Shown one piece after another: positions 1-36,495 of a stretch of 43,542 nucleotides of DNA; the first letter of the stretch is position 1, and every line of letters starts with the position of its first letter. The notes below the pieces were generated by a model. It did no database searches. It was not told the DNA's origin and saw only the letters and a program-made list of their open reading frames with translations. This DNA is from a virus, in the IMG/VR virus record IMGVR_UViG_3300020439_001732, positions 1-43,542 of that record; one strand, written 5' to 3'. The position numbers and the translations under genes were made by a program.

Positions 1-145
1 TATTGATTACTACTTCATCTAATGATTTTTGTTTTTCATACTCACCAACATATTGTTCGGTTGATACTGATGCGGCACATCCCATAAATTGTACACCCAC
101 ACTAAACAAAACCACTCCTATGAATAGTTTCCAAAATTTACTCAT
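1..145 (-). CDS. Putative phage lipoprotein, truncated at the window edge (o-spanin-like candidate)
   Basis: The reading frame starts at 145 and stays open to the left edge, giving 48 visible residues. The start has an AGGAG site 7 nt upstream. The N-terminus is a lipoprotein signal: basic MSKFWK, a hydrophobic stretch, then a lipobox ending FMGC, with the likely lipidated cysteine followed by AASVSTEQ. The rest looks soluble and charged (YVGEYEKQK). It follows the membrane coiled-coil gene by only 9 nt. An anchored coiled-coil protein followed by a small lipoprotein is the layout of phage i-spanin/o-spanin pairs, so a lysis role is a reasonable inference. The missing C-terminus prevents a firmer call. 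Confidence 0.72.
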   Translation of the reverse strand, partial: MSKFWKLFIGVVLFSVGVQFMGCAASVSTEQYVGEYEKQKSLDEVVIN

Positions 146-154: not shown

Positions 155-535
155 CTATTTGAAATCTGCCAATGGGTCTTTTAGTAGTTTTTCTAAACGA
201 GTGATTTCACCTTTGAGTTTATCAATCTCATTTTCTAACTTAACTATATCTCCATCATAAGATTTTACTTTTGGTGTTTTTAAACCATCTACTTTTTCTC
301 GTAGATATTTAAAATCTTCATCATATTTCTCGAATTTTTCTGCTACCATTTCTACATCAGAAGCATCAGCGAATCCTTGAACTACTTCTTCCAACCCATC
401 AATACGACCAGTAAAACTATACCAACCAGCGATGACGGTAGAAAGAAAAGTAACAATAGCAATAATATTGTTAATTGATACTTTGAATCCTTTTGATTTA
501 ACTTCTTCAATAGCTTGCTCTATATCCTTTGCCAT
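155..535 (-). CDS. Single-span membrane protein with coiled coil (i-spanin-like candidate)
   Basis: 126 residues. A short basic/acidic N-terminus is followed by one transmembrane segment at about residues 21-43 (INNIIAIVTFLSTVIAGWYSF). The remaining 80 residues are strongly charged and heptad-like (coiled coil), as in KLENEIDKLKGEITRLEKLL near the end. The likely topology is N-in, C-out, with a periplasmic coiled coil. A GGAG site lies 7 nt before the ATG. It sits between the PorV-like gene and a lipoprotein gene. Size, topology and the downstream lipoprotein fit a two-gene spanin system that fuses inner and outer membranes at lysis. No family was recognised directly, so function is inferred from architecture only. 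Confidence 0.8.
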   Translation of the reverse strand: MAKDIEQAIEEVKSKGFKVSINNIIAIVTFLSTVIAGWYSFTGRIDGLEEVVQGFADASDVEMVAEKFEKYDEDFKYLREKVDGLKTPKVKSYDGDIVKLENEIDKLKGEITRLEKLLKDPLADFK

Positions 536-536: not shown

Positions 537-1439
537 TTACAACTCCATATTTATTGTTATTAACATTGTGTTTTTCAATGGATGAGTATCATTACCTTGT
601 AACACTCCAATCCCAATTTGATATTTATCATACGATACTTCCATTCCTAATGATGGATAATTCAATCTGAAATCTACATCATTATAATATCCAGCTTTAA
701 ATTTTATCCAATCATTCCCTCTATTATATTGATATGATATTCCTTGTCCGTGTGTGTAATATCCTTTGAGAAAGTTCCATTGATTATAAATATCAAAATC
801 TTTTATAGGTATGTGTAATCCAATATTTAAACTTGATGGATTGTTAGTATCAACATTACCTATTCTAGCAGCATATCCCCAATTTTGTAACATCAAATTG
901 AGATTAACTAAATTATAAAGTTTTTTAAAATGTAAACCAGTATCAACTAAATATCCAGTTCCTTTTTCTGTATACAAATTGTGGTTAACTATTTTTACGT
1001 TAAACCCAATAGTAACATTTTCTAATTTTTCTTTTTTATAATAAAGTTCAGTTCCCCATCCAAGTGAATAAACTGTAGAACGTGGTGAGAATACACTTTG
1101 TACTTGTCCCATCACATCTGCTTCTAATTGTTCTCCGTAATTAAATTGTAGTAAACTTATGTGATACTCACCATACTTGGCTTGAAAATAATTCCACCCC
1201 ATATCATCTACAATATTAGTCATCCAATTTACTTTTGTGAACGCTACGTGGATAGTACTATCTGTATTTAGAATATTGTAAGCAGGATTTCTGTAATATG
1301 TAGACATACCACCAATCATCATCTCGTTAGCCGTAGGTGATATTGTTAGTAAACTATTTACTTGTCCTAATAATTGACTACTAATAGAAAGTATGAAAAC
1401 TATTAAAAACATTATCCAAAATTTGATATTCTTTTTCAT
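537..1439 (-). CDS. PorV/PorQ-like outer-membrane beta-barrel protein
   Basis: About 300 residues from the ATG at 1439, which is preferred because it begins a clean signal peptide (MKKNIKFW, hydrophobic core, cleavage near LLGQ) and overlaps the stop of the upstream mini-gene as ATGA. The mature start has the PorV/PorQ/FadL-like pattern: an ANEMMIGGMSTYYRNPA segment, as in the family's '..G.A..a.YwNPA', then NWMTNIVDDMGWNY. The remainder is alternating hydrophobic/aromatic beta strands ending NTMLITINMEL. In type IX secretion, PorV shuttles cargo from the translocon to the attachment complex, and PorQ/PorZ do related work. The gene lies directly downstream of a T9SS-sorted cargo gene. A generic OMP of the same superfamily is the alternative. 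Confidence 0.72.
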   Translation of the reverse strand: MKKNIKFWIMFLIVFILSISSQLLGQVNSLLTISPTANEMMIGGMSTYYRNPAYNILNTDSTIHVAFTKVNWMTNIVDDMGWNYFQAKYGEYHISLLQFNYGEQLEADVMGQVQSVFSPRSTVYSLGWGTELYYKKEKLENVTIGFNVKIVNHNLYTEKGTGYLVDTGLHFKKLYNLVNLNLMLQNWGYAARIGNVDTNNPSSLNIGLHIPIKDFDIYNQWNFLKGYYTHGQGISYQYNRGNDWIKFKAGYYNDVDFRLNYPSLGMEVSYDKYQIGIGVLQGNDTHPLKNTMLITINMEL

Positions 1440-1537
1440 TTTTCTTTTCTCTCTCCTAACCATATTACAAATTTCATTAAACAATACATTCCGATTGTCG
1501 AAAGAAATATTAGTAATAAAAAGTCAAACGGATTCAT
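1436..1537 (-). CDS. 33-residue hydrophobic membrane peptide
   Basis: Starts at ATG 1537, sharing the A of the upstream stop (TAATG), and ends in an ATGA overlap with the PorV-like gene. The product begins MNPFDFLLLIFLST, continues as one hydrophobic span to about residue 27 and ends basic (GERKEK). Single-span topology with a positive C-terminus is visible. The couplings at both ends argue that it is translated with its neighbours. Its role is unknown. Given the neighbouring spanin-like genes a small holin/antiholin is possible, but nothing in the sequence proves it. Confidence 0.62.
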   Translation of the reverse strand: MNPFDFLLLIFLSTIGMYCLMKFVIWLGERKEK

Positions 1538-4170
1538 TATCCAGTCACCGTAAACTTGTTAGCTTTTATTTTGTTACCAGTTTGTAATATAAAAATATAA
1601 ACACCTGGTTCTAATTTTTTATGTTTTTGATAAACACTTTGTTCAGGTAACCAAACACTTGGTACGTTACTAAAATCAAATGTATGTATACCTGGTGCCA
1701 CCATCTCATCCAATAGTTTACCAACATACTGACCATTAGAATTTAAGATGTATAATTTTACTTCTTTTAATTCATCAACATAAAATTGAAATCTTGTAGT
1801 TTCAGAAAATGGATTAGGATAGTTATAAGTTATTTCATCTTCTTCTGGTTCTCCACCACCAAATGCCCAATACTTATTCCATACTAATACTTGACCACTC
1901 TCACGATAAACTGTTAAATCTCTTCCACTTGGATCACCAGCTGAATATTTTCCAACAAATTCAATTGGTGCTTGTGTCCATTCTGTTGCTGGGAAATCAG
2001 CTCTGAATAAAAGTTTTAACGCGACTTGTTCTTCATCAATCCAATAGTTTTGTGGTGCGTTACCTGGTGAATAATCCATACCACCAAATGATACTTTTCT
2101 CCACCCATCATCATTTTCTGTATGAACATTCACATAAGTAAACCACGGACCTGGTAACTTACCCGTGTTCATATCAATAAATTCCAACTCATCACTTTTA
2201 AATCTTATTTCAAATTCTAATCCAGCTACATTTAAACCTTTTGGATTTATTCTCAATGGTACTTCTATAATATCACCACTACGAACACGAACTGTAGAAT
2301 CTTGTGGTAATGTAAAATCAACATCGGATTCCTCAACCATTATTCTATTCAACCAAGTACCTGGTGCATTTCCATCACCCCAACGATAAAATGTAGAACC
2401 ATTAACATCAATATATCCATCTGCGTTATCACCAGGCTCTTTTACTTTTGTACCAGTAGTGTTTACATCACCTGTAAAATAATATTTTATACTATCGATT
2501 GTGTAATCAGGATTTACATCATTACCATATACAGATGAACCACCACCTATACTAATTTGTAAAGTATCTAATCCAGTCTGTACATCATTCATCAATGGAT
2601 TAATAACTTCAATCGCACCAAATTCAAGTGTGGTATCCTCTACTAAACTATCATCCCAAAAAACAGTAAACTCATATTTTTGTTTACCCCATTCTTCATA
2701 CCATTGATAATTTAACCATTGACCATTTTCTTTTAAAGTATCTATTGTAGACCAGTTTTGTAAACTATCTCCATTTAAGTGTAAATACTTTGGTAAAATT
2801 TGTGAAGTATATGCCCATATAAAATATGAATCATTTAATTGAAATAAATCATCACCATCTACATCAGCCACCAAATATTCAGCTGCAGTTAAAGTATCAA
2901 CACCAACTACTGATTTCCATTTATTACTTTGAAAATTAAAAGATGCAATTGCATCATTTAAGTTTGTTATTTGATATCTATCCATTTCATATTGAGTATG
3001 GTCTTCTATATCATCAAGAGAATCTGGTGGATAGAATGACATTCTGTACACATTATTTCTTGGTAACATAATATTATAATATCCTCTATCATCTGTATAC
3101 GTTGTATCATAATAACTTACACCTAAGAATCCTTCACTTGGTAATGCCTGGTCTGCGGTAGTACCTTGATTATCATAATAGTAAGTACCATTATCATCAC
3201 CAATAATATCATCAGTTGTTGTTTCATCTGTTAAACTTGTAACATCACCAACTGTTTCTATGTTATACCAACTATTATTATCTTGTGGATTACTTTGGTC
3301 TAACTCAAATCGTATCTTCCAATAAGGATAAGTGTTTTCTGCACCTCTATCATTACCTTGTATATATCTAAAGTATCCCTCGATATTAACCAACTCTGGA
3401 TGTAAAGTTATATCTCCACGAGCACCACCATCATAAGTTCTATCATTGACTGTAGAGTTTCCCCAATTACCATCAATATAAACTTTGTAATCTAATGCGT
3501 AATCATCCGACACATATGTGTAGTATCCTTGATTACCTTCATAAAATGTGGCAACTCTAAAAGACCTTGGTGCATAATCATCAACCTTATCTTCTATTTT
3601 AAAATTTAGTTTTACAATTTGTTTCTGTACTCCATTACCACCACCAAATTCAAATTCATTTACATTATGTGATACTGCAGTAATTCTTAACCAATCATAA
3701 TTTGAATTATCACCTTGTGATTTTTCATTATCAGCACTTTGTAAAGAATCAATATACCCAACATCTGAATAGTGAACAACTTCATATGAGTAATCAGCAC
3801 CTAATGTACTATCACCCTCTGTACCAGTTAGTAAATGTGCACCTTTAATTACTTCAGTATCTTCGTGACTCCAATCAATTAAATCATTATCAAAAACAAT
3901 ATCCAATCTAAATGTAGATATGTTAGCACCATTATCATCAAGTGTTACTTCGATTTGCATTACCGAATCTCTCCACGCATCAAAGTTATTATTTGCATAT
4001 GCCGCGTTATTTATATCATCAGCCAAATAAGTTTGTAATTGGTGCGTAACACTCTGTCTCCACCACGTACTTGGTGTTTTATAAGTACCAATTTGTTTCA
4101 ATCGAATAATCGGTTCTTGTGCCGAGACGATACTACCCAACAATAGTATCATACTTAAAAACTTTTTCAT
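1537..4170 (-). CDS. Large secreted protein with cohesin-like/dockerin-like modules and C-terminal T9SS sorting domain
   Basis: 877 residues from ATG 4170 (AGGA 8 nt upstream; the TTG just before it is rejected). It starts with a signal peptide, MKKFLSMILLLGSIVSA/Q. Residues about 55-215 and 620-770 look like cohesin-type beta sandwiches (RLDIVFDNDLIDW; VPLRINPKGLNVAGLEFEIRF). Residues about 395-460 resemble dockerin halves (NLNDAIASFNF; DVDGDDLFQLNDSYF). The last 100 residues match the T9SS type A sorting domain: YNYPNPFSETTRFQF, KLYILNSNGQYV, GIHTFDFS, LEPGVYIF and K.NKF.V at the end. In FCB bacteria this domain sends cargo across the outer membrane for surface attachment or release. Finding it in a phage late operon is very unusual. 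A virion or adhesion role cannot be excluded, but the signal peptide favours export. Confidence 0.85.
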   Translation of the reverse strand: MKKFLSMILLLGSIVSAQEPIIRLKQIGTYKTPSTWWRQSVTHQLQTYLADDINNAAYANNNFDAWRDSVMQIEVTLDDNGANISTFRLDIVFDNDLIDWSHEDTEVIKGAHLLTGTEGDSTLGADYSYEVVHYSDVGYIDSLQSADNEKSQGDNSNYDWLRITAVSHNVNEFEFGGGNGVQKQIVKLNFKIEDKVDDYAPRSFRVATFYEGNQGYYTYVSDDYALDYKVYIDGNWGNSTVNDRTYDGGARGDITLHPELVNIEGYFRYIQGNDRGAENTYPYWKIRFELDQSNPQDNNSWYNIETVGDVTSLTDETTTDDIIGDDNGTYYYDNQGTTADQALPSEGFLGVSYYDTTYTDDRGYYNIMLPRNNVYRMSFYPPDSLDDIEDHTQYEMDRYQITNLNDAIASFNFQSNKWKSVVGVDTLTAAEYLVADVDGDDLFQLNDSYFIWAYTSQILPKYLHLNGDSLQNWSTIDTLKENGQWLNYQWYEEWGKQKYEFTVFWDDSLVEDTTLEFGAIEVINPLMNDVQTGLDTLQISIGGGSSVYGNDVNPDYTIDSIKYYFTGDVNTTGTKVKEPGDNADGYIDVNGSTFYRWGDGNAPGTWLNRIMVEESDVDFTLPQDSTVRVRSGDIIEVPLRINPKGLNVAGLEFEIRFKSDELEFIDMNTGKLPGPWFTYVNVHTENDDGWRKVSFGGMDYSPGNAPQNYWIDEEQVALKLLFRADFPATEWTQAPIEFVGKYSAGDPSGRDLTVYRESGQVLVWNKYWAFGGGEPEEDEITYNYPNPFSETTRFQFYVDELKEVKLYILNSNGQYVGKLLDEMVAPGIHTFDFSNVPSVWLPEQSVYQKHKKLEPGVYIFILQTGNKIKANKFTVTG

Positions 4171-4202
4171 CAAAGTCTTCCTAAAGGTTTATGTGTTTGT
4201 GT

Positions 4203-4283: not shown

Positions 4284-5288
4284 TTATACGTCAAATCTAA
4301 CAACTACTGAAGTAACTACATCTTTACTCAATTTAACTGGTTTAGCCAACTTACCTACGGCCAATAATTCAGAGTTATCATTGTAGAGTCCGACTGTTGT
4401 TAGATATGGTAGAAATTGTGAATGAGTTACAAACCCCTGTGCGGTATCTGATGCATTATAGAAACTAAGAAAACTACCAGTACCATTTGTTGGTTGGTCA
4501 CCTGGTGGTAAAAACTTAAACATATCAGTAGTACCTTCTGGTATTGTTATACTACCACTTCTACCTGGCATTACATTTGGATTAAATGAAGTATTAAATT
4601 CGTTTGGTTGGATTCTAACAACATACTCGTGTTCATAAATTGTACGAGTACTTCTATATGTTAAATCGTGCGTTTCAGTTCCAGCATTATCTAATGAACC
4701 TGTATCTGTTATAACTAAAATTCCGTGTTGATATATTATATTACCAACTTGTGAACCACTTCCATTAGATAATATTCCTTGATTTCTATCAAACGAACTT
4801 GATTTATATGCGGCGAAACTAGCTGAATGAGCGAAATCATATAAGTTACCATTCCCATCATCTCGTATATCATAGGTTACACCACCAGTAGTTATATTAA
4901 ATCTTACAGATTCTTTTTTAACTTCTTCACCCATCATATTTCTTGGGATAGAAAATATTTTAGCCCTATCGTGTAATTCTCTTTTCTCTTTTTGTGTATT
5001 ATTATTTCCGAAAGTTCTGTATGGTTCATCATTTTCATAATACATATTTCTTACCCAATACCAATTTGGTATTTCATAATATGTACCAAGACCATAATGT
5101 TGTCTTGAAGATGTATACTGACCAAAACTTTGTGAGGCCGCAGAACCCGTTAAGAAATTGTGAAAAGAACCACTTGTAGCTTTAAGTGCATAATGTCCAC
5201 TCCCACTATCATTTTGTGTGAGATTGAATTTCTTGTAAGCTTTAAATGGCTTTATTGACTTATCTGATGGGTCAATGTTTTTTAACAT
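4284..5288 (-). CDS. Tail/baseplate-associated structural protein (paralogue of the next gene)
   Basis: 334 residues starting MLKNIDPSDKS. The C-terminus carries the block TVGLYNDNSELLAVGKLAKP, matching QVGLYNDSNELLAIAKLSKP in the upstream neighbour. The two also share an internal stretch (GNIIYQHGILVIT versus GNFYPDLGILVFN). This block is familiar from structural proteins of marine T4-like phages, which supports a virion role, but the exact part is not known. The protein is rich in Ser, Thr, Gly and Asn, as tail proteins often are, and has no signal peptide or membrane span. It is the last gene of the tail cluster, 10 nt after its paralogue. Confidence 0.78.
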   Translation of the reverse strand: MLKNIDPSDKSIKPFKAYKKFNLTQNDSGSGHYALKATSGSFHNFLTGSAASQSFGQYTSSRQHYGLGTYYEIPNWYWVRNMYYENDEPYRTFGNNNTQKEKRELHDRAKIFSIPRNMMGEEVKKESVRFNITTGGVTYDIRDDGNGNLYDFAHSASFAAYKSSSFDRNQGILSNGSGSQVGNIIYQHGILVITDTGSLDNAGTETHDLTYRSTRTIYEHEYVVRIQPNEFNTSFNPNVMPGRSGSITIPEGTTDMFKFLPPGDQPTNGTGSFLSFYNASDTAQGFVTHSQFLPYLTTVGLYNDNSELLAVGKLAKPVKLSKDVVTSVVVRFDV

Positions 5289-5298: not shown

Positions 5299-6318
5299 TT
5301 AGAAATCAAGTTTTACTTTTATTATAGCTTCTCTTGAATATGATTTAAGAACTGGTTTACTTAGTTTAGCAATTGCCAATAGTTCATTTGAATCGTTATA
5401 AAGTCCAACTTGTGTTATAAACACTTTAGGGTCTTTAAAGAAACTAGCTTGTGTGAACGAACCATCTGAACCAGTAAAGAACGTTGGGTTCGCACTAAAG
5501 TTATATCTTTTATTATTCACCCTACAGAAAAAGTTAGTAGAACTAATTTCTTCTTCTCTACGAACTTGGAATTTAGCACCATCTACAATCTTATTGAAAA
5601 GTTTTCGTGGATTGTTAGCAAATGCATCGGTGTTTCTACCAGTACTTAACGCAACTGTAGAATCCAATTGTGATGCGTTAAATACAAGAATACCTAAATC
5701 AGGATAGAAGTTACCAATCGCTCCACCAGTTTGTGAAGCCGCGGCTGTTTTGATTACAGCTCTACCAGTTTCAATTGAACCACTAACGATATTAAATACT
5801 CTACCACCCTCATTAACGGTCGCAACATTAGTTGCTCCACTATCATCAATAAATTTTCTTTTAGCGGCACCACTACCAAGACATAGTTCCCAATTACCAG
5901 GATCAACTTTTTCTCTCATTCTACTTCTGTTAAATGATACAAAATAAATATCATCAGAAGAACTTGGAGCACCTGTAAATGAAAACTTCTCAGTTTGTGG
6001 TGGTAACAATACACTAGCGAATTGTCTATACATAGCCGCACTTTCTCTACCACCTTTAGCCAACTTTGTAGTATTACCAGCCGAACCACTTCCTTGAAAG
6101 TGTCCATACCCAATATCAAACTGAACTTCAGCGGTTGATGGTGATGTTGCGGGGTCTTGATGGTAAATGTGTAAAAACGAACCAGTAGCCTGTTGTGTAG
6201 AACTTGTAAAGAATGATGTTAAAGAACTTGCACCGCCACTAAAAATACCACTCGATACTTTTACTTTTTGATTTTCTACTACATCATTATTATAATCAAA
6301 TCGTGTAAATACTGACAT
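5299..6318 (-). CDS. Tail/baseplate-associated structural protein (tandem paralogue)
   Basis: 339 residues from the second of two tandem ATGs (6318), which has the better spacing (6 nt) from AGGAG; 6321 is the alternative. It begins MSVFTRFDYNNDVV and ends with the QVGLYNDSNELLAIAKLSKP block, then KVKLDF. The middle is Gly/Ser/Thr rich. It is homologous to the downstream gene over the C-terminal 150 residues, while the N-terminal halves differ, suggesting duplication followed by divergence of the exposed part. The context is tail/baseplate genes on both sides. The specific structural role is unknown. Confidence 0.8.
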   Translation of the reverse strand: MSVFTRFDYNNDVVENQKVKVSSGIFSGGASSLTSFFTSSTQQATGSFLHIYHQDPATSPSTAEVQFDIGYGHFQGSGSAGNTTKLAKGGRESAAMYRQFASVLLPPQTEKFSFTGAPSSSDDIYFVSFNRSRMREKVDPGNWELCLGSGAAKRKFIDDSGATNVATVNEGGRVFNIVSGSIETGRAVIKTAAASQTGGAIGNFYPDLGILVFNASQLDSTVALSTGRNTDAFANNPRKLFNKIVDGAKFQVRREEEISSTNFFCRVNNKRYNFSANPTFFTGSDGSFTQASFFKDPKVFITQVGLYNDSNELLAIAKLSKPVLKSYSREAIIKVKLDF

Positions 6319-6328
6319 CATCTACTCC

Positions 6329-7087
6329 TTATAAAGTACTTGGGTCTGCTTTTACTGTGATAACTACATTGAAAGTAGCTCCAGTAGCGAGACCTGTTAC
6401 GGTTAGGTTAGTAGCAGTATCTGTGGTTACACTACGTGATACAACATTAACTTTAGAACCCGTCAATGTTATAGAACGTTTTCTTTCTTCTTCATTCAAG
6501 AATACAGGAGTAGTTGCACCAGTGTTCACGGCCAAATCAGCCAACGTTGAAGTGTTCATACCTGGTACGTTGAATATGGGAGCAACTCCAGCACTTCCGT
6601 TTTGCATTAGTGGGTTGAAACCAGGACCACCACCTACTACTGTAGAAGTTCCTGTGTTTACAACTGGTGTAAGATTTGCTATTGTAGCATCGTGTAATGT
6701 GAATGAATATCCTGCTTCCGCATCACTACCATTTCTCGTGTTAGGTGAAACAGTTTGTGTAACACCTGGTCCATTGAAAGAAAGGTTTGGTGATGGTATT
6801 TCCAATATTGGAAGTTTTGCAGTGTTCTTTGGTAAGGTAACAAGTTTGTACCTCATAATTTGATTCTCATCCACGAAGGCTTCTAATAAAGGCATATTCT
6901 CAATAACTGCCCCATAAAAATTTGAACCATTCGGGTGAGCCGTATCCCATAATCTGTAATCGACTTCATCATCAGCAAGTGCGAATTTTGTAATTTTGAA
7001 TTCGTCTTGTCCTCTTGCTAATAACTCTCGACCTTTTTTGGTTAATACAGCATCTACCGTTACGCTTGTATTATTTAAAAATCCCAT
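6329..7087 (-). CDS. Phage tail-associated structural protein, unnamed family
   Basis: 252 residues with AGGAG 7 nt before the ATG. The conserved-looking N-terminus (MGFLNNTSVTVDAVLTKKGR, then ELLARGQDEFKITKFALADDEVDY) is of a kind seen in structural proteins of large marine myoviruses, where proteins starting in this way lie beside baseplate genes. The C-terminal half is Thr/Val-rich beta sequence with a short Ig-like stretch (KVNVVSRSVTTDTATNLTV). It is the first gene after the leader and motif at 7109-7144, so it probably starts its own transcript. The exact virion part is not recognisable. Confidence 0.78.
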   Translation of the reverse strand: MGFLNNTSVTVDAVLTKKGRELLARGQDEFKITKFALADDEVDYRLWDTAHPNGSNFYGAVIENMPLLEAFVDENQIMRYKLVTLPKNTAKLPILEIPSPNLSFNGPGVTQTVSPNTRNGSDAEAGYSFTLHDATIANLTPVVNTGTSTVVGGGPGFNPLMQNGSAGVAPIFNVPGMNTSTLADLAVNTGATTPVFLNEEERKRSITLTGSKVNVVSRSVTTDTATNLTVTGLATGATFNVVITVKADPSTL

Positions 7088-7156: not shown

Positions 7157-10100
7157 TTAATCAATTTTTAATTGAGAATCACCTGGCTCTTGTGTTACAA
7201 GTTTAGTAGGTGATGTTATTGTAATCTCAACTGGATCTTTACCATCTATTGTATTTTTCTTTGTTGTTTTTGTTCCTATGTAAAACGTTCTGAAAAGTTT
7301 AGTACTATAAGCTTGACTTTCAAATTCAGCTCGTTCAAACGAAGAACTATATTGATACATTCCATTGTATCTAAATTTTTCTCCAAAACCATTCGCGGTT
7401 GATACTGAAAGTGAACCTGTATAGTAAGGTACTTTTATTTCATTATGTTCACTCAACCTCGAAGAACTAATAAAAGGTTGTAACGTTTCTTCAAATTCTT
7501 TTTCAATCGCACCAAACGTAATACTAGCAGTTGCGTATAAACTACCATATTCACTCGTTGGATTTATTTCATTTATTTTATTTAATGTTGGTAAACCTAA
7601 AATACCTAATGAACCACTTTCAAAATTTCTTACATTTATACCACCAGCATAATTTGGATACTCACCACTCAATTGTACTGAACCACTATCGGTAGCGTTT
7701 ATATCAACTCCGATATCAAATATATTAGCATTCTCAAAATATGGATTTTCAACTTCTGGTTTTTTACCAATAACTTCTTTAGAACGTTCAAGTATATTAG
7801 GTTCTATTAATAATCCAAAATTATAATTAGCTCTAGCAGGAATTAATTTACCAGCAGTGTTCCAAATACTTTGGTCAAAATATTCTATGATTCTCATATA
7901 ATCCCAAAAGTTATTTGCGGATTTATATTTTTTCCAATAATCTCTTTGTACTTTATCTAAACCAGTATACGTGTATCTATATTCATCTTTTGGATTTCCT
8001 ATTTGGTCATCTATATTAAAATCAGCCAAACTATACATTATATCTTCATTAACCACATCAACTGGTGAAAATTGTAGTGATAATTTATTACTATCTATTG
8101 GTGCAAAATCTTGTGATGATTGTTCCTGTCTTACTTCTGGTGATAAATTACCACGTAGTGTTGTACTTTCTAAACGTATCTTTGTAGCGTTTCTTCTATT
8201 AGGTCCAATGTTTGGTACTTTTAATTGTTCTAAATCAACTAAACTTCTAAATGAGTTACCAGTAAATCCAACTGCACTACCTGATAAAATACCATAACTA
8301 TTTTTAAATGATTTATCATCAATCGCTTCAGTATAGGTTTGTAAGTTTACGTTATCACCCAAATCTAATCTAAAAATTAAATTATCATACGCGGATGATG
8401 TAGTGTTACCATTATAAGCTTTTGGTGCTCTAACGTGGTTATCAAAAACACTCTGTGATAAAGGTTCACTCCACAATCTAAACTCTTGTAGAGAACCACT
8501 AAATTGTACACCATAAAATTTAGAACTTGGTTTACCACCAAGATAAAAATTTGTACTCGTAGAAAATTTCGTGTTAACACCAGCAGTACTTGAATTAAAA
8601 CTTGAAGAATCTTGATATTGAATTACCTGTCGTGTTGAATCATATTGTTTTGTTGTTAATTCGTATTTAATATTTTGAGTAGTAGTATCAGCAGTTAAAT
8701 CAGCTCCACTAGCTGATTTTCTTGTTAACATTACACTCCACATCTCATCATTGTATACAGGAAATAAAGATGAAGTTAAATATTGAAAACTCGAACCACT
8801 CAAAGCAAATTCAACATATCCATAATCATCAGGTTGACCATTATCTCGTAATGCGATTGCCCAATTATCTTCGGCCTCAAGTATAACTTGGTCTTTGGAT
8901 TTTGGTGAACGGAATCTAAACTCTACTGTTTGTGGTTTAATACTACTTTCAGTATCATTACGCCAAGGAAATCTAACAGTCTCACTTGATTTAAAATCTA
9001 AGGCGTATGAAAACTTTCTTTTCATTTCATACGATACTCGTGTACCAACATCAGGTCCACCAAACTCACGTATCCTTAAAATACTACTTGGTATACCATA
9101 ACAATTTACTAATCCTTTTAACGCCCTTTGAGTACCTTTGTACTTCATAAAGAAAGGCATATTAGTTAAAATTCTTTTCCATATCTCTTCAGTTAATTCT
9201 TCTTGTGGTGTTTCGTATTTATCAGAACCATCAGCACCTTTACCTAATAAGTACTCAGGTATTATTACCAAATCATTACCACTACCAAGTTCCATTCCCA
9301 TACTCTTCGCAACTTGTTGTACTAAATCTTTAGATATACCCTCACTTAGTTTATTTGTTCTTTCATTAGTATCTGTAAAATGTCTAACATAAGTCCACAC
9401 CTCATCAAATTGTTGACCAACCATATCCATAAAATCTAAGAACGCGTTATTTTGTGTATCGGTGTTTATGTGTTGTGGTAAATGTCCTACAAGTCTATCA
9501 GTATTATTTAAATCAAATATAGATGCACTATTAATCATATTATCATACCAATTAGTAAATATAGAATGACTCGTATGATAATTTATATAAGGTTTAGAAT
9601 TATTATGTTTTGGTACTGCAACATCGTGAAATTGTCCAATCGATGAACTAGCATAAGATGAACTTTCAAAATACATATAATGTTCAAATGGGTCAAACGA
9701 ATTAATAACTTGGTTTTTACCAACATCATATCTATCTTTAGTAACCGATGAACCAGTTACATCAGTAACACCCGCACTTTGTGAAGTGTAGTTTTGTATT
9801 AATTCTAATTTCTTTTTAAAATTTTCAATTCTTCTTTCTGCACTACCAAAATGAACAAAGTTACCAAAACCTGTATCATCTTTATCTATACCAAGTTGTT
9901 CGGTTCTTTTCTGATAATCAATGTTTAATTGTACATCAAGTAAACTACCACTAAATAATTTATTTTTTATATCTTGTTTTGTTTCATCATCAGTACCCAA
10001 CAAATCGTTAAATGTATTATATTGAGTACTTCTAAATTCAATTGGATTATCAACTGAATTTAAATTAGGAACTCTTAAATATAACACATCTGGATCTTCT

Positions 10101-11842
10101 TCAACAAAATCAACTAACTTAACCATATCAGTATAAGGTTCTAATTTCTCTTGAACAAAATAACAAGTATCTAATTCTTCAATATCATTTGGTAGTTTAT
10201 CATAAAGTTTAAATATTTGAGAAGTTCTATCCGCATCATTATCTTGACCACTCTTACTATTAATAACAATAAAGTATTGGTCACCAATAACCATATACGT
10301 GTTTAATCTTTGTATTTGTTGTTTTTGGTATTGTACATAAAATCTATCAAATATATCTGAACTTCTATCTTCACCAGTATTGTTAAATTGATTTGCCAAT
10401 TCTTCATATGACATATTTATTTTAACTCTACTTGCATCCAACACTTCTACGATAGTAGCGATTAAAGTTCTTGGTACTTGTGTAGTTTGTATTTGTGCTG
10501 GTGGTGTATTTTCTGGTATTGGTTCTACCTCTGGTACTGGTTGTGGATCAGGATGTGGTTCATCAAGAAAAAATTCATCATTAGTTGGTATAGTTGTTGT
10601 TGGTGGAACATCTACATCACTATCAGATGGTGAAAATAGTTCTTCATTCAGAGCCATTCTAAATTTATTTCTACTATGTAAAAACTCTTCGTTACTTTTC
10701 CACTTACCCATTGTAGCACAAATAACATTATTCGCAACGATTGTATGACCTCTATCTAAAACTAAATTGTAAACATCAGAAACTGTATTATTAAATTTAT
10801 ATGATTTTAATTCATCAGCTCTATACCATCTACCATTATGTTTTATTGGATGACCAGGTGTAACGTGTAATCCTTTATAGTTAATCATATTGGCACCACC
10901 ATATGGTTTTGGTGATTTAATAACTTTTTTTATTTTAGCAAAACCAATTTCAGTTTTAACTTTCATACCTGGTTTTAAAAATTTTATTGGTACACTTCTA
11001 TTATTACTTAATTTTATTTTAGTGTTTGGGTGAAAACAAGTTTGTGAAAATAAATCCATCAAACTTTCAGCACCTAAAACAAAGTTAGCTGGTACGTTAT
11101 CTGGTATTGGTAAATTAGGTGGTGCAATATTAGGTGGTGCACCAAGAAATGTTTCAACTGTATTTTCAAAAACATTTGGTATATTGATTTGTCCACCAAC
11201 CATATTATCGTTGAATCCCATATCAGTATTATGAAATGTTGCGATTAAAATTGTTGGGTCTGTTAAATCAAATCTTATCTTACCAGCATTTTGAGTAGTT
11301 TTTGGAAAGAATACTGTTGTTTTACCTATACCTAAAAAATCACTTTTATAAACTCCATTGTTTATATCTTGTAAATCAACTTTTACTTCTTTTCTATTTG
11401 GTGAAATCTCTTTTATATAATATTGTAATTTTTTAGGATATAATTCACTTAGTGTTTCTGATGCACCTTGATTTTGAAAATAACGAGTTTGTCCATTTAT
11501 AACTTTTACGTTAACTTTGTGTGTCCAAACTTGACCAGTAGCATCAACAAATACATCTTGTTCACTACCAGCAATTCTTCTTAAAAATAAGTATTGTACT
11601 TTATAATCACCAGAACCTAACCCCATTTCTCTAAGGTGTGTTCCGATATCAACTAAAACACCATCATCATTAAATTGTAACGCACCGATAGGAAATACAG
11701 CATCTTGGATTGGATTATCTTCAACATCAAACACGTAGATATGTACATAATCTCTAGCCGAAGATTGACCATAGTTCGTAAAATATTTTACATTACCCTC
11801 TAGCTGTTGTTTATCTTTTTCTTTTAAAGAATTAAATTTCAT
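7157..11842 (-). CDS. Giant baseplate/tail protein with embedded Hint domain and LamG-like region
   Basis: 1561 residues; the ATG overlaps the upstream stop as TAATG. Residues 1-268 precede a Hint (intein-type) domain at about 269-378, and a Pro-rich acidic linker follows (about 405-455). The central part contains NSASIFDLNNTDRLVGHLPQ and DMVGQQFDEVW. Around residues 1000-1180 a LamG/concanavalin-like region is visible (WSVMLTRKSA, FYLGGKP, FSGSLQEFRLWSEPLS). Position among gp6, gp25 and tail genes and its great length suggest the large wedge or fibre-connecting component, in the place of T4 gp7 or gp10 or the 'VrlC-like' protein of cyanophages. No direct gp7 similarity was recognised. The C-terminus ends KLVTQEPGDSQLKID. 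Confidence 0.85.
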   Translation of the reverse strand: MKFNSLKEKDKQQLEGNVKYFTNYGQSSARDYVHIYVFDVEDNPIQDAVFPIGALQFNDDGVLVDIGTHLREMGLGSGDYKVQYLFLRRIAGSEQDVFVDATGQVWTHKVNVKVINGQTRYFQNQGASETLSELYPKKLQYYIKEISPNRKEVKVDLQDINNGVYKSDFLGIGKTTVFFPKTTQNAGKIRFDLTDPTILIATFHNTDMGFNDNMVGGQINIPNVFENTVETFLGAPPNIAPPNLPIPDNVPANFVLGAESLMDLFSQTCFHPNTKIKLSNNRSVPIKFLKPGMKVKTEIGFAKIKKVIKSPKPYGGANMINYKGLHVTPGHPIKHNGRWYRADELKSYKFNNTVSDVYNLVLDRGHTIVANNVICATMGKWKSNEEFLHSRNKFRMALNEELFSPSDSDVDVPPTTTIPTNDEFFLDEPHPDPQPVPEVEPIPENTPPAQIQTTQVPRTLIATIVEVLDASRVKINMSYEELANQFNNTGEDRSSDIFDRFYVQYQKQQIQRLNTYMVIGDQYFIVINSKSGQDNDADRTSQIFKLYDKLPNDIEELDTCYFVQEKLEPYTDMVKLVDFVEEDPDVLYLRVPNLNSVDNPIEFRSTQYNTFNDLLGTDDETKQDIKNKLFSGSLLDVQLNIDYQKRTEQLGIDKDDTGFGNFVHFGSAERRIENFKKKLELIQNYTSQSAGVTDVTGSSVTKDRYDVGKNQVINSFDPFEHYMYFESSSYASSSIGQFHDVAVPKHNNSKPYINYHTSHSIFTNWYDNMINSASIFDLNNTDRLVGHLPQHINTDTQNNAFLDFMDMVGQQFDEVWTYVRHFTDTNERTNKLSEGISKDLVQQVAKSMGMELGSGNDLVIIPEYLLGKGADGSDKYETPQEELTEEIWKRILTNMPFFMKYKGTQRALKGLVNCYGIPSSILRIREFGGPDVGTRVSYEMKRKFSYALDFKSSETVRFPWRNDTESSIKPQTVEFRFRSPKSKDQVILEAEDNWAIALRDNGQPDDYGYVEFALSGSSFQYLTSSLFPVYNDEMWSVMLTRKSASGADLTADTTTQNIKYELTTKQYDSTRQVIQYQDSSSFNSSTAGVNTKFSTSTNFYLGGKPSSKFYGVQFSGSLQEFRLWSEPLSQSVFDNHVRAPKAYNGNTTSSAYDNLIFRLDLGDNVNLQTYTEAIDDKSFKNSYGILSGSAVGFTGNSFRSLVDLEQLKVPNIGPNRRNATKIRLESTTLRGNLSPEVRQEQSSQDFAPIDSNKLSLQFSPVDVVNEDIMYSLADFNIDDQIGNPKDEYRYTYTGLDKVQRDYWKKYKSANNFWDYMRIIEYFDQSIWNTAGKLIPARANYNFGLLIEPNILERSKEVIGKKPEVENPYFENANIFDIGVDINATDSGSVQLSGEYPNYAGGINVRNFESGSLGILGLPTLNKINEINPTSEYGSLYATASITFGAIEKEFEETLQPFISSSRLSEHNEIKVPYYTGSLSVSTANGFGEKFRYNGMYQYSSSFERAEFESQAYSTKLFRTFYIGTKTTKKNTIDGKDPVEITITSPTKLVTQEPGDSQLKID
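10709..11038 (-). other. Hint (intein-like) autoprocessing domain inside the 1561-residue protein
   Basis: Protein residues about 269-378. Block A is CFHPNTKIKLSNNRSVPIKF with Cys269 as nucleophile, then LKPGMKVKT. Block B is GLHVTPGHPIKHNGRW, with the T..H motif. Block F is VYNLVLDRGHTIVANNVICA. The normal intein end (His-Asn followed by Cys/Ser/Thr) is absent; the sequence runs ICATMGKW, resembling Hint domains that end '..ATLGHG' (Vint/BIL types), which cleave rather than splice. There is no homing endonuclease insert. The domain is about 110 residues, the size of a minimal Hint fold. Confidence 0.85.
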
Positions 11843-20514: not shown

Positions 20515-20544
20515 AATATACGACATTTTCTATATACTTGTCAA
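20515..20544 (-). promoter_or_regulatory. Sigma70-like promoter for the HD/gp55 operon
   Basis: Minus strand: TTGACA (20544-20539), an 18-nt spacer ending in CG, then TATATT (20520-20515), 33 nt before the ATG at 20482. The same layout with AAGACTTGAC upstream recurs at 35605 and 36458. It overlaps the last codons of the PLP-enzyme gene. Confidence 0.82.
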
Positions 20545-21381
20545 GTCTTTTTTTGCAATTTTTTCCATATTTTCTCCACCAAGATTATAGAATAAAGTTT
20601 TACCCTCTAACTTATTATTCTGTAACCACCACCAAGCTTTCTTATCCCAATTACCATTACACGGAAATGGTGTTTCTAAATAATCCATAGTATCGAAAAA
20701 ATCTTGTTCTGCTTCTGATATGTAAACATTATTATGGTGATACACATCCCACTTCTTTAACATTCTAATAATAGATGTTTCACCAGCGGTGGTAATCAAG
20801 TAAGCTTTCTTTTGTGGTATGAAGTTATCGTAATCCATAAAACCTTTTAATACACCAGCACCTGTTACACCACTTCCAGCGTTCAATACAATATTATCAA
20901 AATCATATTCTTTTTGTATATCACTTACTCTATCAGAAAAATAATTTATATATTCAGGATGATTAAATGCATATGGCATCATTTGATAATCTTTTTCTTC
21001 TGCAACTCGTTTCACATAAGTTTCCACGATATCAAGTAGGTTAGGTTTTACTGGTACTAACTCTACATCATAACTTGAAATCTTATCTAATATTTCTTGT
21101 GGATAATTTTTACTATTTGGATATGCGATTTTTATATCCCATCCTAATTCTCTACCAATGTAAGCAAGTGCCCATCCACTATAACTTACTCTAACGGATA
21201 AATGTATTAATGGTTTGTTCTTATCTAAATCACCACTTTCTAATACTCTACGTATACCTTCCATTTTAGCCCACGGTGGTAAATCCATATCACCATTAAA
21301 TAAATCATCTCGTTTTACCCAAACCTCTTGTTCACCACAAGTGTGTTTTTCTATGGGTGTATCAAAATTAAAGTAGAGCAT
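20530..21381 (-). CDS. PLP-dependent enzyme, fold type II (ACC deaminase/D-cysteine desulfhydrase-like)
   Basis: 283 residues. VKRDDLFNGDMDLPPWAKME contains the lysine (about Lys39) expected to bind PLP. LSVRVSYSGWALAYIGRELG matches the 'S.G.sNHg.A.A' helix region with substitutions, and NAGSGVTGAGVLKG (169-180) is the phosphate-binding glycine loop. The family includes ACC deaminase and D-cysteine desulfhydrase, which act on small amino acids. The usual 'GGNK' is changed to 'PWAKMEG', so specificity may differ. It overlaps the Asp/Asn-hydroxylase-like gene by 14 nt and is the last gene of the cassette; its stop lies within the next promoter. Confidence 0.78.
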   Translation of the reverse strand: MLYFNFDTPIEKHTCGEQEVWVKRDDLFNGDMDLPPWAKMEGIRRVLESGDLDKNKPLIHLSVRVSYSGWALAYIGRELGWDIKIAYPNSKNYPQEILDKISSYDVELVPVKPNLLDIVETYVKRVAEEKDYQMMPYAFNHPEYINYFSDRVSDIQKEYDFDNIVLNAGSGVTGAGVLKGFMDYDNFIPQKKAYLITTAGETSIIRMLKKWDVYHHNNVYISEAEQDFFDTMDYLETPFPCNGNWDKKAWWWLQNNKLEGKTLFYNLGGENMEKIAKKDLTSI

Positions 21382-22546
21382 CTAAATGCCTTTGTTCACA
21401 TTCGATATCCATAATAACGTGGAATCGAAAATTCTTAGATTCATTTCTAACCCAATGTGGTTTTCTTTTATCCATATAATAATACTCACCAACTTTTAAT
21501 CTATGGTCAATCTCTTCACCATCTAAACCAATTTGTGTAAATACACAATCATCATCAACTTGTAATGGAAAGTGTACTCGTAATGATTGACCAACTTTAG
21601 GTCCGTTCTTAGTTTTGTAATCCCAACTATCATAACCAATATCAGTATGCCTTTGTATCAAACCTTTATGTGGTTCAACTCTTGTGATTACCAACCACGT
21701 ACATTGACCAACCGTAGTTATCTTATCCACGATACTTTGTAACTTAGGTAACGATTCTAATATCTTAGTATCTGTAGGACTATCTGGTCTGATTGGTACA
21801 ATCTCAATCGTGTACCAAGTTTTTTCAGGACCACCATAGTTTCCATTTATACCATCGTATGACCACGGATTTAGTGCATCTTCATAGTTTATGATTTCTT
21901 GTACTAATTCAGAACATTCTTTTTTTGTTATTGGTGAATCAATATCAATTTTCTTAATTGTAATATCTTCGTGTTGTTGTACACCTGGTTGTTCTTTTTC
22001 TCCACAATAATATAATCCACGTACCTCAGAACCAACTGCGGTTATTTTACTTGATAACCACTTAGCCCCAATCATATCCATAAACTTCTTATCTTCTTTT
22101 AATTCCATATTGATTTCAGTAAACCATATATCTCGTTTTGTTGAAAAGAAACCATTATCTTCTTCACGTTCTTTTTGTATAGATTCTAACAACTCATTTT
22201 CATAACCATCTTTGTATGCGAATCTTGTAACTTGTAAATCACCTTTACTTAATGTACCAACTATATCATCAGCAATATCTTTTATACCACGATTACTTTT
22301 ACTTTCTTTTATAAAGTATGCCCATACTAATTCATCATCTACTTTTTTAAATTTATAACAACCTTTATCATTTTCATCATAAATGTTTTTCCAATTTACT
22401 TTTTTAAACGGGTCAAGATTTTTTTCTTTTGTAGCTATAGGTTGTTCTTGATGTTGTGGTGGTACATCATACTCTTGGAAAAATTTAGCTTCCAACTTAT
22501 AACTCTCTTTTATATTATCTGGTATTTCACTTGTTTTTAAAACCAT
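21368..22546 (-). CDS. Aspartyl/asparaginyl beta-hydroxylase-like 2-oxoglutarate/Fe(II) oxygenase with extra N-terminal domain
   Basis: 392 residues. The C-terminal 150 hold the metal triad: RHTDIGYD (His300, Asp302), [18 protein letters not shown], and [19 protein letters not shown] with His364 and Arg374 as the 2-oxoglutarate ligand. This pattern matches Asp/Asn hydroxylases. The N-terminal 190 residues are a separate domain with [20 protein letters not shown], faintly acetyltransferase-like, which I cannot assign. A GGAG precedes the ATG, which overlaps the upstream stop. The substrate is unknown; a peptide, an amino acid or a modified base are possible. Confidence 0.82.
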
Positions 22547-23337
22547 TTATTTATTCTCCTTTCGAGAATAGGATTTTCAACATTATTATCTAAACAACTC
22601 TGAATGATTTCAGAAAGTTTTTTGTGGTCGTTTTTATGACCAAGATAATCCCAACTCATATGTTTTGTGTATGTAACTTTATTTGTTTGTAATAACTCAT
22701 CACGTAATTCAGTACCTAATGTATCTATAAATATGCTTTTAATTTTCTTTTCTTCAATTAATTTTAAAAGGTCTTTATTATTATGTGTTTTAGCTCTACT
22801 GATAGAAACAAAATTTATATCACTTGTATTTTTAAACAACTCATAATTAAACATCCCTTCAGTAGATTCATTTAGTGATACACAAGAAACTATATTTGTA
22901 ATCCCACCACCAATAGATATATTTTTAATTTTAGTTTTACTATCAATCACAATATAAATTCCATCTATAAGTTCTTGTAATCTTTTTGAAATACTACCAT
23001 TTCCAAATATAATAGTTTTTCCATCAACTAACTTATCTTTAATCCAATGTGCACATCCATCAGTATTAGGATTCGTGGCCACAACTCCAACACCATATTT
23101 AGAACATAATTCTAAATTGATACTATCTGTGCCGTGACCACGATATACTACCCATTCGAGAGCTGGATACCTATCCAATGTAGTTTTTCCAACTTTACTG
23201 AACTTGGTTGATATAACCTTAATCTCATTAACAGGTATGTGGTCTCCATTTTCCATAGCACCTAAAACATAGGAATCGGAAATGAATTCCTCTACACCTT
23301 GTAAATCAGATTTATCTTTTAGCAGAATATTTTTCAT
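22537..23337 (-). CDS. D-2-hydroxyacid-dehydrogenase-like protein, degenerate
   Basis: 266 residues from ATG 23337; the upstream ATG at 23433 lies deep in the preceding gene and is less likely. The N-terminal part reads like a hydroxyacid dehydrogenase: [39 protein letters not shown]. The nucleotide-binding loop is [19 protein letters not shown], a 'GxGxxxxR' form in place of the usual GxGxxG. C-terminal: [17 protein letters not shown] and [11 protein letters not shown], resembling the final catalytic His region. It is shorter than the family (about 320), and the middle is reduced, so activity is uncertain. It overlaps the genes on both sides. Confidence 0.66.
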
Positions 23338-23752
23338 AGTATAAAATCTTTTTTGGTTCTCTATTTTCTTTTGGTAAATATATTTCGGCTTCAAATCCTT
23401 CAAGTGGTTCACCTCTTTTTTTATAAACCGCATAGAAAGTATTTATTATATAATCCGATATATCTTTTTTATCTCGTATAAATTTATTTTGGTAATTAAA
23501 AATTATATCATTTAATCTAATACCCACAGGTATAATATGTTCAAGATGTAATCCTGAAGTGTTTTTACTATTATGTTCTGTAAGTATATTAACATTTGAT
23601 GATAACCTTGCTTGTTCCGATAACCATACACCTTGTTCTTTGATGAGTACATCATCATATTTACGAAGTGTTTTATTCATTATATCTTTGTCAATGTTTC
23701 CGCCTTTACAATATTCAGCGAGTAAAACAAACAAGGTATCATCAAACTTCAT
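23312..23752 (-). CDS. HNH-like protein of the enzyme cassette
   Basis: 146 residues. [16 protein letters not shown], followed by NYQNKF, resembles the core of HNH nucleases ('LEHiiP...n..N'). Upstream it is helical ([20 protein letters not shown]). No zinc-binding cysteine pairs are seen. The C-terminus is Lys/Glu/Tyr-rich ([20 protein letters not shown]). It starts just after the ParB-like gene stop and overlaps the dehydrogenase-like gene by 26 nt. It may be a nuclease acting with the ParB-like protein, but the motif is weak. Confidence 0.6.
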
Positions 23753-23753
23753 A

Positions 23754-24917
23754 CTAATAGTCCGATAAAGTATCTTTTAAATACTCACGTTGGAACTCTC
23801 TGAAACTAATCAAAGAGTGTACTTCCTCACTACTATGTTGTGGTAAGAAAGCAACGAAATGTATTAGTTCACGAACTTCTTTAGAAAACATTTTACGCAG
23901 TTCAATCATTCTTCGTGCGTATGTTTTTCTATCGTGTAATAAGTTACCAGCATCTAAAGTATCTGTTGATAAGAAAATATGAATAGGTGTTTTTTCACCT
24001 TGGTCAGCCATATGTTCTGTTGCCAAAAAGATATCATTAGCATTTCTATCGATACGATTAGAAGGCCAGTACAACGAAACACTTTTTAAGTGTGGTTGTG
24101 CAATGTCCAACTTACTGAACTTACTATTACTATTAGAAGAGATTACTAAGTTATTAATCTGAATATCCCCATAATGGAATTCATCTTCATAATACCTATC
24201 AACCCATTCTTGACCATCTGCGAAAGTAGATAACTTTGTAGCAACACCATCCAAGTCGATAAGTCTACGAACCTTCTTCATCACTTCACGAATCTGTTTG
24301 TATCTTGTCCATAAACGAGATCCGTTTCTCTTCATCTTCTTCAACTCTTTCTCAAGATACTTCAACCGCACTTCAGGTGTACCAGGATATTCGGCTATCA
24401 TATTATAAGCACCTTTAACATAATCACTCATCCCAGCATTGTTAACTGCTTTTCTATTAGCATTTTCTTCAAGTCCAATTACTGCCAAGATAAATTTAAC
24501 TTCTTGTTTTGATAAACCATCTTGTAACTGAATTACAACTGATGGTAAGTTCTTATCAAACTTTGTTTCATCAGCATCATCAGCAGCAGTTAATCTATGC
24601 ATACATAACCTACCAAAATGTCCTTTTGGTTTTGATAACTTTGAAGTATCATCATTGTATTCATTGTTCTTAAAGATAATGATGGGCTCCTCCTCTTCGA
24701 GAAACCCATCGTTTTCAAAAGACTCAACCAGTAAATTCTTTACATTCTGATTGATGCCTTTATCACGAGCAAGATTTTTTTGATTATTAAAATCTATGTC
24801 GTCAATGTGAACCAACGTTACGTCGTTCACTTTTTTAATATATGTTGGATAATTTTTTTCAAGATTCAATACCCAATTTGGTATTGTAAAACTTCCAACA
24901 CTTTTGGTAACATTCAT
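23754..24917 (-). CDS. ParB-like N-terminal domain protein
   Basis: 387 residues from ATG 24917, chosen because AGGAG sits 7 nt upstream; the longer ORF from 24959 lacks this. Residues about 35-145 follow the ParB/Srx layout: VTLVHIDDIDF, ARDKGINQNVKNLLVESFEN, EEEEPIIIFKNN, then GRLCMHRLTAADDADETKFD in the position of the ParB 'GHHRl.A' box. The middle is helical and basic (KKMKRNGSRLWTRYKQIREV). ParB-like domains in phages act as nucleases or NTP-dependent switches and occur in nucleic acid modification operons. It is followed by four overlapping enzyme genes, so all are probably co-made. A true partition role is unlikely without ParA. Confidence 0.6.
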   Translation of the reverse strand: MNVTKSVGSFTIPNWVLNLEKNYPTYIKKVNDVTLVHIDDIDFNNQKNLARDKGINQNVKNLLVESFENDGFLEEEEPIIIFKNNEYNDDTSKLSKPKGHFGRLCMHRLTAADDADETKFDKNLPSVVIQLQDGLSKQEVKFILAVIGLEENANRKAVNNAGMSDYVKGAYNMIAEYPGTPEVRLKYLEKELKKMKRNGSRLWTRYKQIREVMKKVRRLIDLDGVATKLSTFADGQEWVDRYYEDEFHYGDIQINNLVISSNSNSKFSKLDIAQPHLKSVSLYWPSNRIDRNANDIFLATEHMADQGEKTPIHIFLSTDTLDAGNLLHDRKTYARRMIELRKMFSKEVRELIHFVAFLPQHSSEEVHSLISFREFQREYLKDTLSDY

Positions 24918-24969
24918 ATTGTTACTCCTATTGTTATGTTGAAAGGTTTTATTTAACAACTCACCTAAA

Positions 24970-25107: not shown

Positions 25108-25188
25108 CAAAGAACATAACTTTTTAGGATTTAAAATATGTTATATATATGTATATATCATCGAGGTTTCCCAAACTGTATTTTATTT

Positions 25189-33850: not shown

Positions 33851-33866
33851 TATAACTCCTTTTATT

Positions 33867-34888: not shown

Positions 34889-34898
34889 TTAAATTTTG

Positions 34899-35578: not shown

Positions 35579-35604
35579 AATTTATTCCCCTTATTTAACA
35601 CCTA

Positions 35605-36431: not shown

Positions 36432-36457
36432 AATTTTTTCTCCTTATCTTAGGTACA

Positions 36458-36487: not shown

Positions 36488-36495
36488 GTCTTTTT

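Follow-up and report, generated by a model that had tools for sequence, protein, structure and literature searches.

A Phage Cassette Linking a PorV-Lineage Outer-Membrane Barrel, a Putative T9SS Carrier, to a Type A Cargo

Main Finding

The window analyzed here is the whole stretch of 43,542 nucleotides, a 43.5-kb viral record (IMGVR_UViG_3300020439_001732) that is itself a fragment. Genes for a T9SS type A cargo and, downstream of it, for an outer-membrane barrel of the PorV lineage lie at one of its ends. The locus is best explained, with a probability of roughly 0.6, as an exchangeable cassette that a tailed marine phage of Bacteroidota has in its tail-gene module and that carries a phage-encoded, dedicated pair of type A cargo and PorV-lineage carrier that uses the SprA translocon of the host. 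The observed grounds for this explanation are the protein families, the fixed gene order, the linkage in about 68 contigs, the occurrence of a single cargo with a single carrier in each phage record, purifying selection, and a history common to cargo, carrier, and coiled-coil gene that the adjacent tail genes do not share. From these grounds we infer a dedicated delivery pair, as the original prediction had proposed; the barrel protein itself is a diverged, shorter relative of PorV.

Organization of the Locus

Nearly all long open reading frames of the window lie on the minus strand, and the features under discussion are collected in Table 1. The gene of interest, also read from the minus strand, encodes a signal-peptide protein that does contain the two motifs previously noted, YYRNPA and NWMTNIVDDMG, the latter at residues 71-81. 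The 33-residue gene that had been said to join cargo and barrel through stop/start overlaps is arranged exactly in this way: it begins on the cargo stop codon, and its own stop codon overlaps the barrel start as ATGA (1436-1439).

Table 1. Coordinates of the cassette, its parts, and the neighboring genes in the window, in order of transcription.
Feature	Position	Strand	Remarks
Large tail protein	7157-11842	(-)	First in transcription order at this end
Three further tail-module proteins	6329-7087, 5299-6321, 4284-5288	(-)	Between large tail protein and cargo
T9SS type A cargo	1537..4173	(-)	878 aa from TTG 4173; 877 aa from ATG 4170
Cargo domain order			Signal peptide, cohesin-like N domain, dockerin-like stretch (by eye), cohesin, T9SS CTD
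Cargo cohesin domain	1876..2328	(-)	Residues 616-766
Cargo type A CTD	1540..1827	(-)	Residues 783-878; YPNPF .. GQ .. G.HTF .. LEPGVY .. K873-FT
33-aa single-TM microprotein gene	1436..1537	(-)	Between cargo and barrel
PorV-lineage 14-stranded outer-membrane barrel, putative T9SS carrier	537..1439	(-)	300 aa; ATG 1439, stop 537
Barrel signal peptide, ending ..LLG^Q	1365..1439	(-)	Predicted mature start Gln26 (Bacteroidetes Q-rule)
Barrel extracellular loop 1 motif WMTNIVDDMG	1197..1226	(-)	W72, D79 invariant; aligns with PorV loop holding N87
Barrel extracellular loop 2 motif FNYGEQ	1128..1145	(-)	Y101, G102, Q104 invariant; aligns with PorV F115
Barrel C-terminal PLKNT signature	567..581	(-)	Common to PorV; none in aligned PorQ sequences
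126-aa TM plus coiled-coil protein, fourth cassette gene	155..535	(-)	
Lipoprotein start, ~213 aa, cut by the window's end	2..145	(-)	Next envelope gene of the operon

Two observations concern other parts of the window. Residues 269-380 of the large tail protein form a Vint/Hint domain (PF14623, E 1.1e-19), which is unexpected in a structural protein. The regions 20530-26901 and 32223-39758, both on the minus strand, hold host-like metabolic and stress genes, including those for a PLP enzyme, an Asp/Asn beta-hydroxylase, a 2-hydroxyacid dehydrogenase, an asparagine synthase, a peptide deformylase, PhoH, and Hsp20.

Family Assignment of the Barrel

Searched against NCBIfam, the window barrel matches the PorV/PorQ family model NF033709 (E 2e-11, 44 bits; residues 46-297 on positions 30-323 of 326) and the PorQ model NF033711 (E 4.8e-11, 42 bits), with no other relevant match; for the PorV equivalog NF033710, no match is listed at E <= 1. 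The curated cut-offs of these models are 90, 220, and 250 bits, respectively. Because the two scores obtained lie under their cut-offs (44 vs 90 and 42 vs 220 bits), a single barrel sequence would not settle the family. TIGR03296, the model that had been suggested for this search, gives no match; the relevant models are the three named above. The window barrel matches no Pfam family. Single-sequence searches with the barrel found nothing, whether as a scan of viral contigs, as a phmmer search of the PDB, or as tblastn against 50,697 phage records (none at E <= 1). Consequently, alignment-based searches were needed.

These searches were based on an alignment of 30 barrel homologues (A1). The PorQ model matches all 30 of them and NF033709 matches 29, with a best value of 3.5e-36; by comparison, this corresponds to ~125 bits, and the sequence concerned should pass the family cut-off. 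The PorV equivalog model matches 27 of the 30, with a best value of only 9.9e-23. When the A1 profile is compared with the PDB, the sole significant sequence is Flavobacterium johnsoniae PorV (E 7.9e-15), followed by TodX at E 1. The PorP/SprF model TIGR03519 has no match in the 30 homologues at E <= 0.01, and the FadL/TodX family PF03349 matches three of them (best E 0.0011; L034 scores 13.2 bits vs a cut-off of 29.7).

A maximum-likelihood tree was built from the phage barrels and cellular relatives drawn from a survey of 395 genomes. In this tree, the phage barrels form one clade (support 100/97), which adjoins PorV equivalogs (split 99/94; L117, L132, L136, and L143, all over the PorV cut-off), while PorQ and other paralogues occupy separate branches. 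The PLxNT pattern is found in 25 of 30 phage barrels. The window barrel thus belongs to the PorV/PorQ family and, within it, to the PorV lineage. The family model, the PDB profile, the fold search described below, and the tree all agree with the earlier assignment to a PorV/PorQ-type barrel. Generic outer-membrane proteins, which the original prediction had named as the finding that would speak against it, are not the best matches, as PorV ranks first both in the PDB profile search and in Foldseek.

The barrel is not a PorV orthologue: it scores far below the equivalog cut-off, it is not accompanied by porU, and the long PorV loop is missing. The phage barrels comprise 278-300 aa vs 364-410 in PorV, and according to the alignment they are devoid of the ~70-80-aa extracellular loop that PorV carries between the ninth and tenth strands. 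Because they are shorter and have no such loop, they are not filed as PorV orthologues.

Structure and Conservation of the Barrel

The AF2 model of the barrel has a pLDDT of 82.7 and a pTM of 0.78. Its top Foldseek match is PorV in complex with the RemA CTD (8gl6_F, E 2.2e-11), followed by PorV 6h3i_F. In the VIA comparison, 266 residues are aligned with 8gl6_F at Z 29.7, an rmsd of 3.7, and 16% identity; further matches are PorV 6h3i_F (Z 29.2), FadL (Z 27.6), and BamG (Z about 25). No close viral fold is present in BFVD, where the best TMq is about 0.4. According to the model, the protein consists of a Sec signal peptide and a 14-strand FadL-like barrel with an N-terminal hatch that contains NPA, in which P52 and A53 are invariant in A1. 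Q26 is likewise invariant in A1, and the Q-rule motif is counted in 29 of 30 sequences. The dN/dS ratio of 0.10-0.26 over eight pairs places the barrel under purifying selection.

The strand order of the AF2 model makes loops 1 and 2 extracellular, and in A1 they are the best conserved extracellular parts of the barrel. In PorV, the main-chain carbonyls of N87 and F115 contact a conserved CTD lysine of RemZ (PMC10994853). Because the lysine-PorV contacts differ among substrates (PMC10994853), the match of the loops constitutes suggestive support and no proof. The original prediction had also looked for a lateral gate as in PorV. This was mistaken: the lateral opening of the solved translocon lies in SprA and not in PorV (PMC10994853), and consequently a barrel without a gate is no valid refutation.

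The Cargo

The upstream protein had been taken to be a T9SS cargo, and the CTD supports this: residues 785-875 of 878 match TIGR04183 (T9SS type A) at 24.8 bits, over the cut-off of 23. Relatives of the cargo score from 21.4 to 35.6 bits, and only L006, at 21.4, falls just under the cut-off. In an alignment of 30 full-length cargo relatives (A2), the CTD core residues P786, Q815, the conserved lysine K873, F874, and T875 are invariant, as is Q19 in all 30, next to the Sec signal peptide. The cargo is under purifying selection.

For the cargo as a whole, AF2 gives a poor model (pLDDT 53.8), of which the cohesin and, roughly, the CTD are usable. Residues 616-766 adopt a cohesin fold (VIA Z 14.2, rmsd 3.0, 134 aligned), for which the PF00963 match (E 2.5e-4) is below the cut-off. 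The N-terminal part also resembles a type II cohesin, at Z about 11, and the stretch around residues 395-460 appears dockerin-like by eye, with no Pfam model confirming it. The CTD model was not recovered as a T9SS CTD among the fold matches listed. Compared with 50,697 phage records, the cargo has a sole match, to the cohesin region of Flavobacterium phage immuto. The gene in question (L055, 11953-12684) encodes a cohesin domain with 30.6% identity to the cargo cohesin region and belongs to a cultured Flavobacterium phage; it shows no CTD match, and no annotated barrel lies alongside it.

Linkage of Cargo and Barrel

The coupling of the two genes is much tighter than the original prediction could have foreseen. 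A cargo-seeded scan of IMG/VR found the barrel downstream in 46 of 49 loci, and the remaining three contigs end at this point. In an independent barrel-seeded scan, each of the 62 loci has upstream of the barrel either the cargo or, where the contig ends, a remnant of it. Counted by contig name, these loci represent 66 distinct viral contigs, in addition to the window and one MAG contig (about 68). Neither gene was found alone except at contig ends. In 15 of 16 phage records, exactly one TIGR04183 protein over the cut-off and exactly one barrel stand side by side; the sixteenth, that of L001, contains neither. In these data, the pair is obligate.

This linkage bears on the possibility that the barrel is a generic FadL-type channel or porin, serving in uptake or in receptor replacement as in lysogenic conversion, that adjoins the cargo by accident. 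Phages with porins of their own exist, such as phage PA-2 with Lc; the barrel shares its fold superfamily with such proteins, and FadL and OmpG come next in the fold search. However, the PDB profile favors PorV (7.9e-15) over TodX (E 1), and none of the 62 barrel-seeded loci has the barrel without the cargo. Because the barrel gene always occurs with the cargo in these loci, this highly improbable reading was rejected.

The occurrence of one cargo and one barrel per phage would also fit a lasting 1:1 complex, in which the barrel is an outer-membrane anchor (PorQ-PorZ-like or SprF-like) and no shuttle; host PorV would export the cargo, which would then dock on the barrel. Type B carriers appear to act in this manner (PMC12618676), and the PorQ model matches every one of the 30 homologues. 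However, the tree and the PLxNT signature place the barrel with PorV and not with PorQ, and conservation extends to the loops with which PorV works inside SprA. An anchor role is therefore considered quite unlikely.

Cargo and barrel are mostly separated by -4 to about 240 nt. This gap holds, in 21 of 42 non-redundant relatives (e.g., L007, L021, L050, and L054), an open reading frame of 32-49 aa with a single TM segment and a pattern of roughly M..FF...MLPALY.T.K.IVWFSEK.E+K; the frame is missing from gaps of 11 nt or less. The 33-aa gene is thus a conserved microprotein gene in about half of the loci and not filler.

The Cassette Within the Tail Module

Nearly all loci preserve the synteny with the tail genes, and in nearly all of them the 126-aa coiled-coil protein adjoins the barrel, with 44-97% identity. 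The location of the pair within a tail-gene module in dozens of viral contigs led to the rejection of host contamination as its source. Shared history was measured as the correlation of pairwise distances between genes. The barrel correlates with the cargo CTD at 0.78, with the passenger at 0.78, and with the coiled-coil gene at 0.77, and the correlation of barrel and CTD is still 0.76 once the tail genes are removed. In contrast, its values with the adjacent tail genes are 0.47 and 0.31, while the tail genes correlate with each other at 0.91. The cargo, barrel, and coiled-coil gene consequently share a history that differs from that of the adjacent tail genes. The distance correlation could stem from co-inheritance instead of contact; the coiled-coil gene likewise correlates (0.77).

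In the close relative L001, the tail genes are kept and the cassette is absent. More distant phages carry fibre or spike genes or tail-protein paralogues in the slot, as in immuto of Flavobacterium and Mel-JY01 of Microcystis. The cassette is accessory and exchangeable. What the slot of L001 (18006-19304) encodes instead is a 432-aa protein with a signal peptide, an aromatic C-terminus, and no Pfam match, perhaps another outer-membrane barrel.

The position of the cassette also raises the question of whether the cargo is a part of the virion that substitutes for a tail fibre or spike, with the barrel aiding assembly or release. In immuto, genes annotated as tail fiber and tail spike follow homologues of the same tail genes, and Mel-JY01 has three large tail-protein paralogues at this position. 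However, the cargo bears both a Sec signal peptide that follows the Q-rule and a T9SS CTD, L001 retains the tail genes while having no cassette, and the history of the cassette differs from that of the tail genes. A virion component is thus regarded as very unlikely.

In relatives, the barrel is followed by several envelope proteins without known families (L021, 14192-17512; L056, 2896-6277). These are a short protein with a signal peptide, a highly conserved lipoprotein, a 327-aa protein that resembles a barrel, and a 172-aa secreted protein. The lipoprotein is full-length in L007, L021, L030, L054, and L056, with a mean column identity of 88%. By eye, the lipoprotein and the 172-aa protein had been taken as CsgG-like; this idea was dropped, being unsupported by Pfam, PHROGs, and PDB profile searches. 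The PHROG matches of the 126-aa protein and the lipoprotein to "Rz-like spanin" are weak coiled-coil or lipobox matches and prove nothing.

The Host

These ocean viruses probably infect Bacteroidota bacteria. The glutamine that follows the signal peptide is invariant in both proteins (barrel Q26, cargo Q19), and such a residue is the mark of the Bacteroidetes Q-rule (PMC10653852). The tail genes are related to those of Flavobacterium phage immuto, with a baseplate wedge protein at 39.8% over 98%, and also to those of a Microcystis phage (47%). The sharing of tail genes with a phage of Microcystis counts against the explanation favored here. A scan of 84,980 species genomes found a single relative, a 9.2-kb contig that belongs to this phage group and was binned with a Flavobacteriales MAG; the MAG also has SprA (2384 bits), PorV (496 bits), and about 40 type A cargos. 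This one MAG bin is the sole direct link to a T9SS-bearing host. Together, the bin, the Q-rule, and the phage kinship make a Bacteroidota host likely, and no firmer than that because the binning of viral contigs is unreliable.

Proposed Mechanism and Function

PorV of F. johnsoniae docks where SprA opens laterally and binds the CTD inside SprA, and a motor extracts the complex (PMC10994853). A similar sequence of events may be envisaged for the phage pair. Both proteins would cross the inner membrane by Sec, and the barrel would insert into the outer membrane and dock at the lateral opening of host SprA. Its extracellular loops 1 and 2 would take the cargo CTD inside SprA, and the T9SS motor of the host would pull out the carrier-cargo complex. 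The cohesin-type passenger would end up displayed on the infected cell. A carrier of its own would free the phage from the host supply of PorV, and it could keep the cargo attached to the carrier, as in the case of type B cargo with SprF.

Some considerations stand against a dedicated carrier. In score, the window protein falls far short of the PorV equivalog cut-off, and it has no ~70-80-aa PorV loop. Moreover, all type A CTDs of F. johnsoniae use one PorV (PMC12618676), and consequently a second carrier is not obviously needed.

The most likely purpose of the pair is surface display, serving either to exclude superinfecting phages or to let cells or particles adhere to one another. This purpose is favored because the slot is exchangeable and surface-directed and because phage resistance in flavobacteria maps to T9SS genes: phage-resistant isolates of Flavobacterium columnare are mutated in sprA, gldM, gldK, and gldN, which ties the T9SS to phage susceptibility in this species (PMC9233685). 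Superinfection exclusion has been suggested for Cryophage too (PMC7468147).

The main rival to surface display is a takeover of the translocon. The barrel would be a competitor that occupies SprA and displaces PorV, thereby halting the export of host type A adhesins, including phage receptors. The phage cargo would be the sole protein let through and loaded onto the surface as a cohesin-type protein, or it would act as a plug; the result would be superinfection exclusion. The resistant F. columnare isolates are in agreement with this scenario, as are the conservation of loops 1 and 2 and an exchangeable slot that in L001 holds a different signal-peptide protein with neither cargo nor barrel. 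However, the strictly conserved CTD and the purifying selection on the cargo point to cargo export as the goal, and takeover is thought unlikely.

Relation to Known Systems

The phage barrel resembles PorV (LptO; 6h3i_F and 8gl6_F) in that a 14-strand FadL-type barrel with an NPA hatch region is paired with a type A CTD, and the loop 1 and loop 2 motifs and the C-terminal PLxNT can be aligned. In contrast to PorV, it is shorter, has no long loop between the ninth and tenth strands, is not encoded downstream of porU, and occurs in phages with a single cargo. The genetic arrangement resembles that of the PorP/SprF carriers of F. johnsoniae, which serve type B cargos and are mostly encoded directly downstream of them, while all type A cargos share PorV (PMC12618676). 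As with these shuttles, the carrier gene directly follows the cargo and there is one carrier per cargo; unlike them (TIGR03519), the phage CTD is of type A, the barrel is of the PorV family, and the pair is phage-borne. The cassette joins type A chemistry to genetics in the manner of type B.

Cryophage (PMC7468147) and crAss-BACON contigs (PMC6949934) have genes whose products bear a T9SS sorting domain and are thought to use the host T9SS; the passages cited report no carrier, whereas the present cargo is a constant partner of a PorV-type barrel within one cassette. Pelagimyophages (PMC7029224) and the OM43 phage Melnitz (PMC9004378) carry genes for the curli pore proteins CsgG/CsgF. They share with the present group that marine T4-like phages hold a piece of a bacterial outer-membrane secretion system, in their case of type VIII. 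In those phages, however, the pore comes without cargo and the hosts are without the system, while here cargo and carrier occur together and the system is present in the likely host.

Cellular counterparts of the arrangement are found among PorV-family paralogues (L128/L161, L144, L174, and L118/L175), where a protein with a type A-like CTD is followed by a PorV/PorQ-family barrel at a gap of 0-4 nt. These pairs differ from the phage pair in that they lie on bacterial chromosomes, those included in the tree fall on other branches, and the upstream proteins are unrelated to the phage cargo. They suggest that bacteria, too, may have dedicated pairs of type A cargo and carrier. Because bacterial chromosomes hold a few such neighbors besides porU-porV, the cargo-carrier arrangement may be of cellular origin.

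Open-licence papers on PorV or on the T9SS with phage gave precedents for cargo only and no report of a T9SS carrier encoded by a phage. Phage T9SS cargo and phage type VIII pore genes are already known from this literature.

Significance

The locus suggests that a phage brings along part of a secretion system to place its own protein on the surface of the infected cell. It departs from the rule derived from F. johnsoniae, in which type A cargos share one PorV and cognate carriers serve only type B cargos. Carrier choice at SprA could be studied in a simple setting with a small, naturally occurring carrier that has one cognate cargo. If takeover of the translocon were true, a virus would be encoding a switch for the specificity of a bacterial secretion machine, and the barrel would be the first carrier known to be dedicated to a single type A cargo. 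The cassette gives a possible route by which a phage may reprogramme the surface of a marine Bacteroidota cell.
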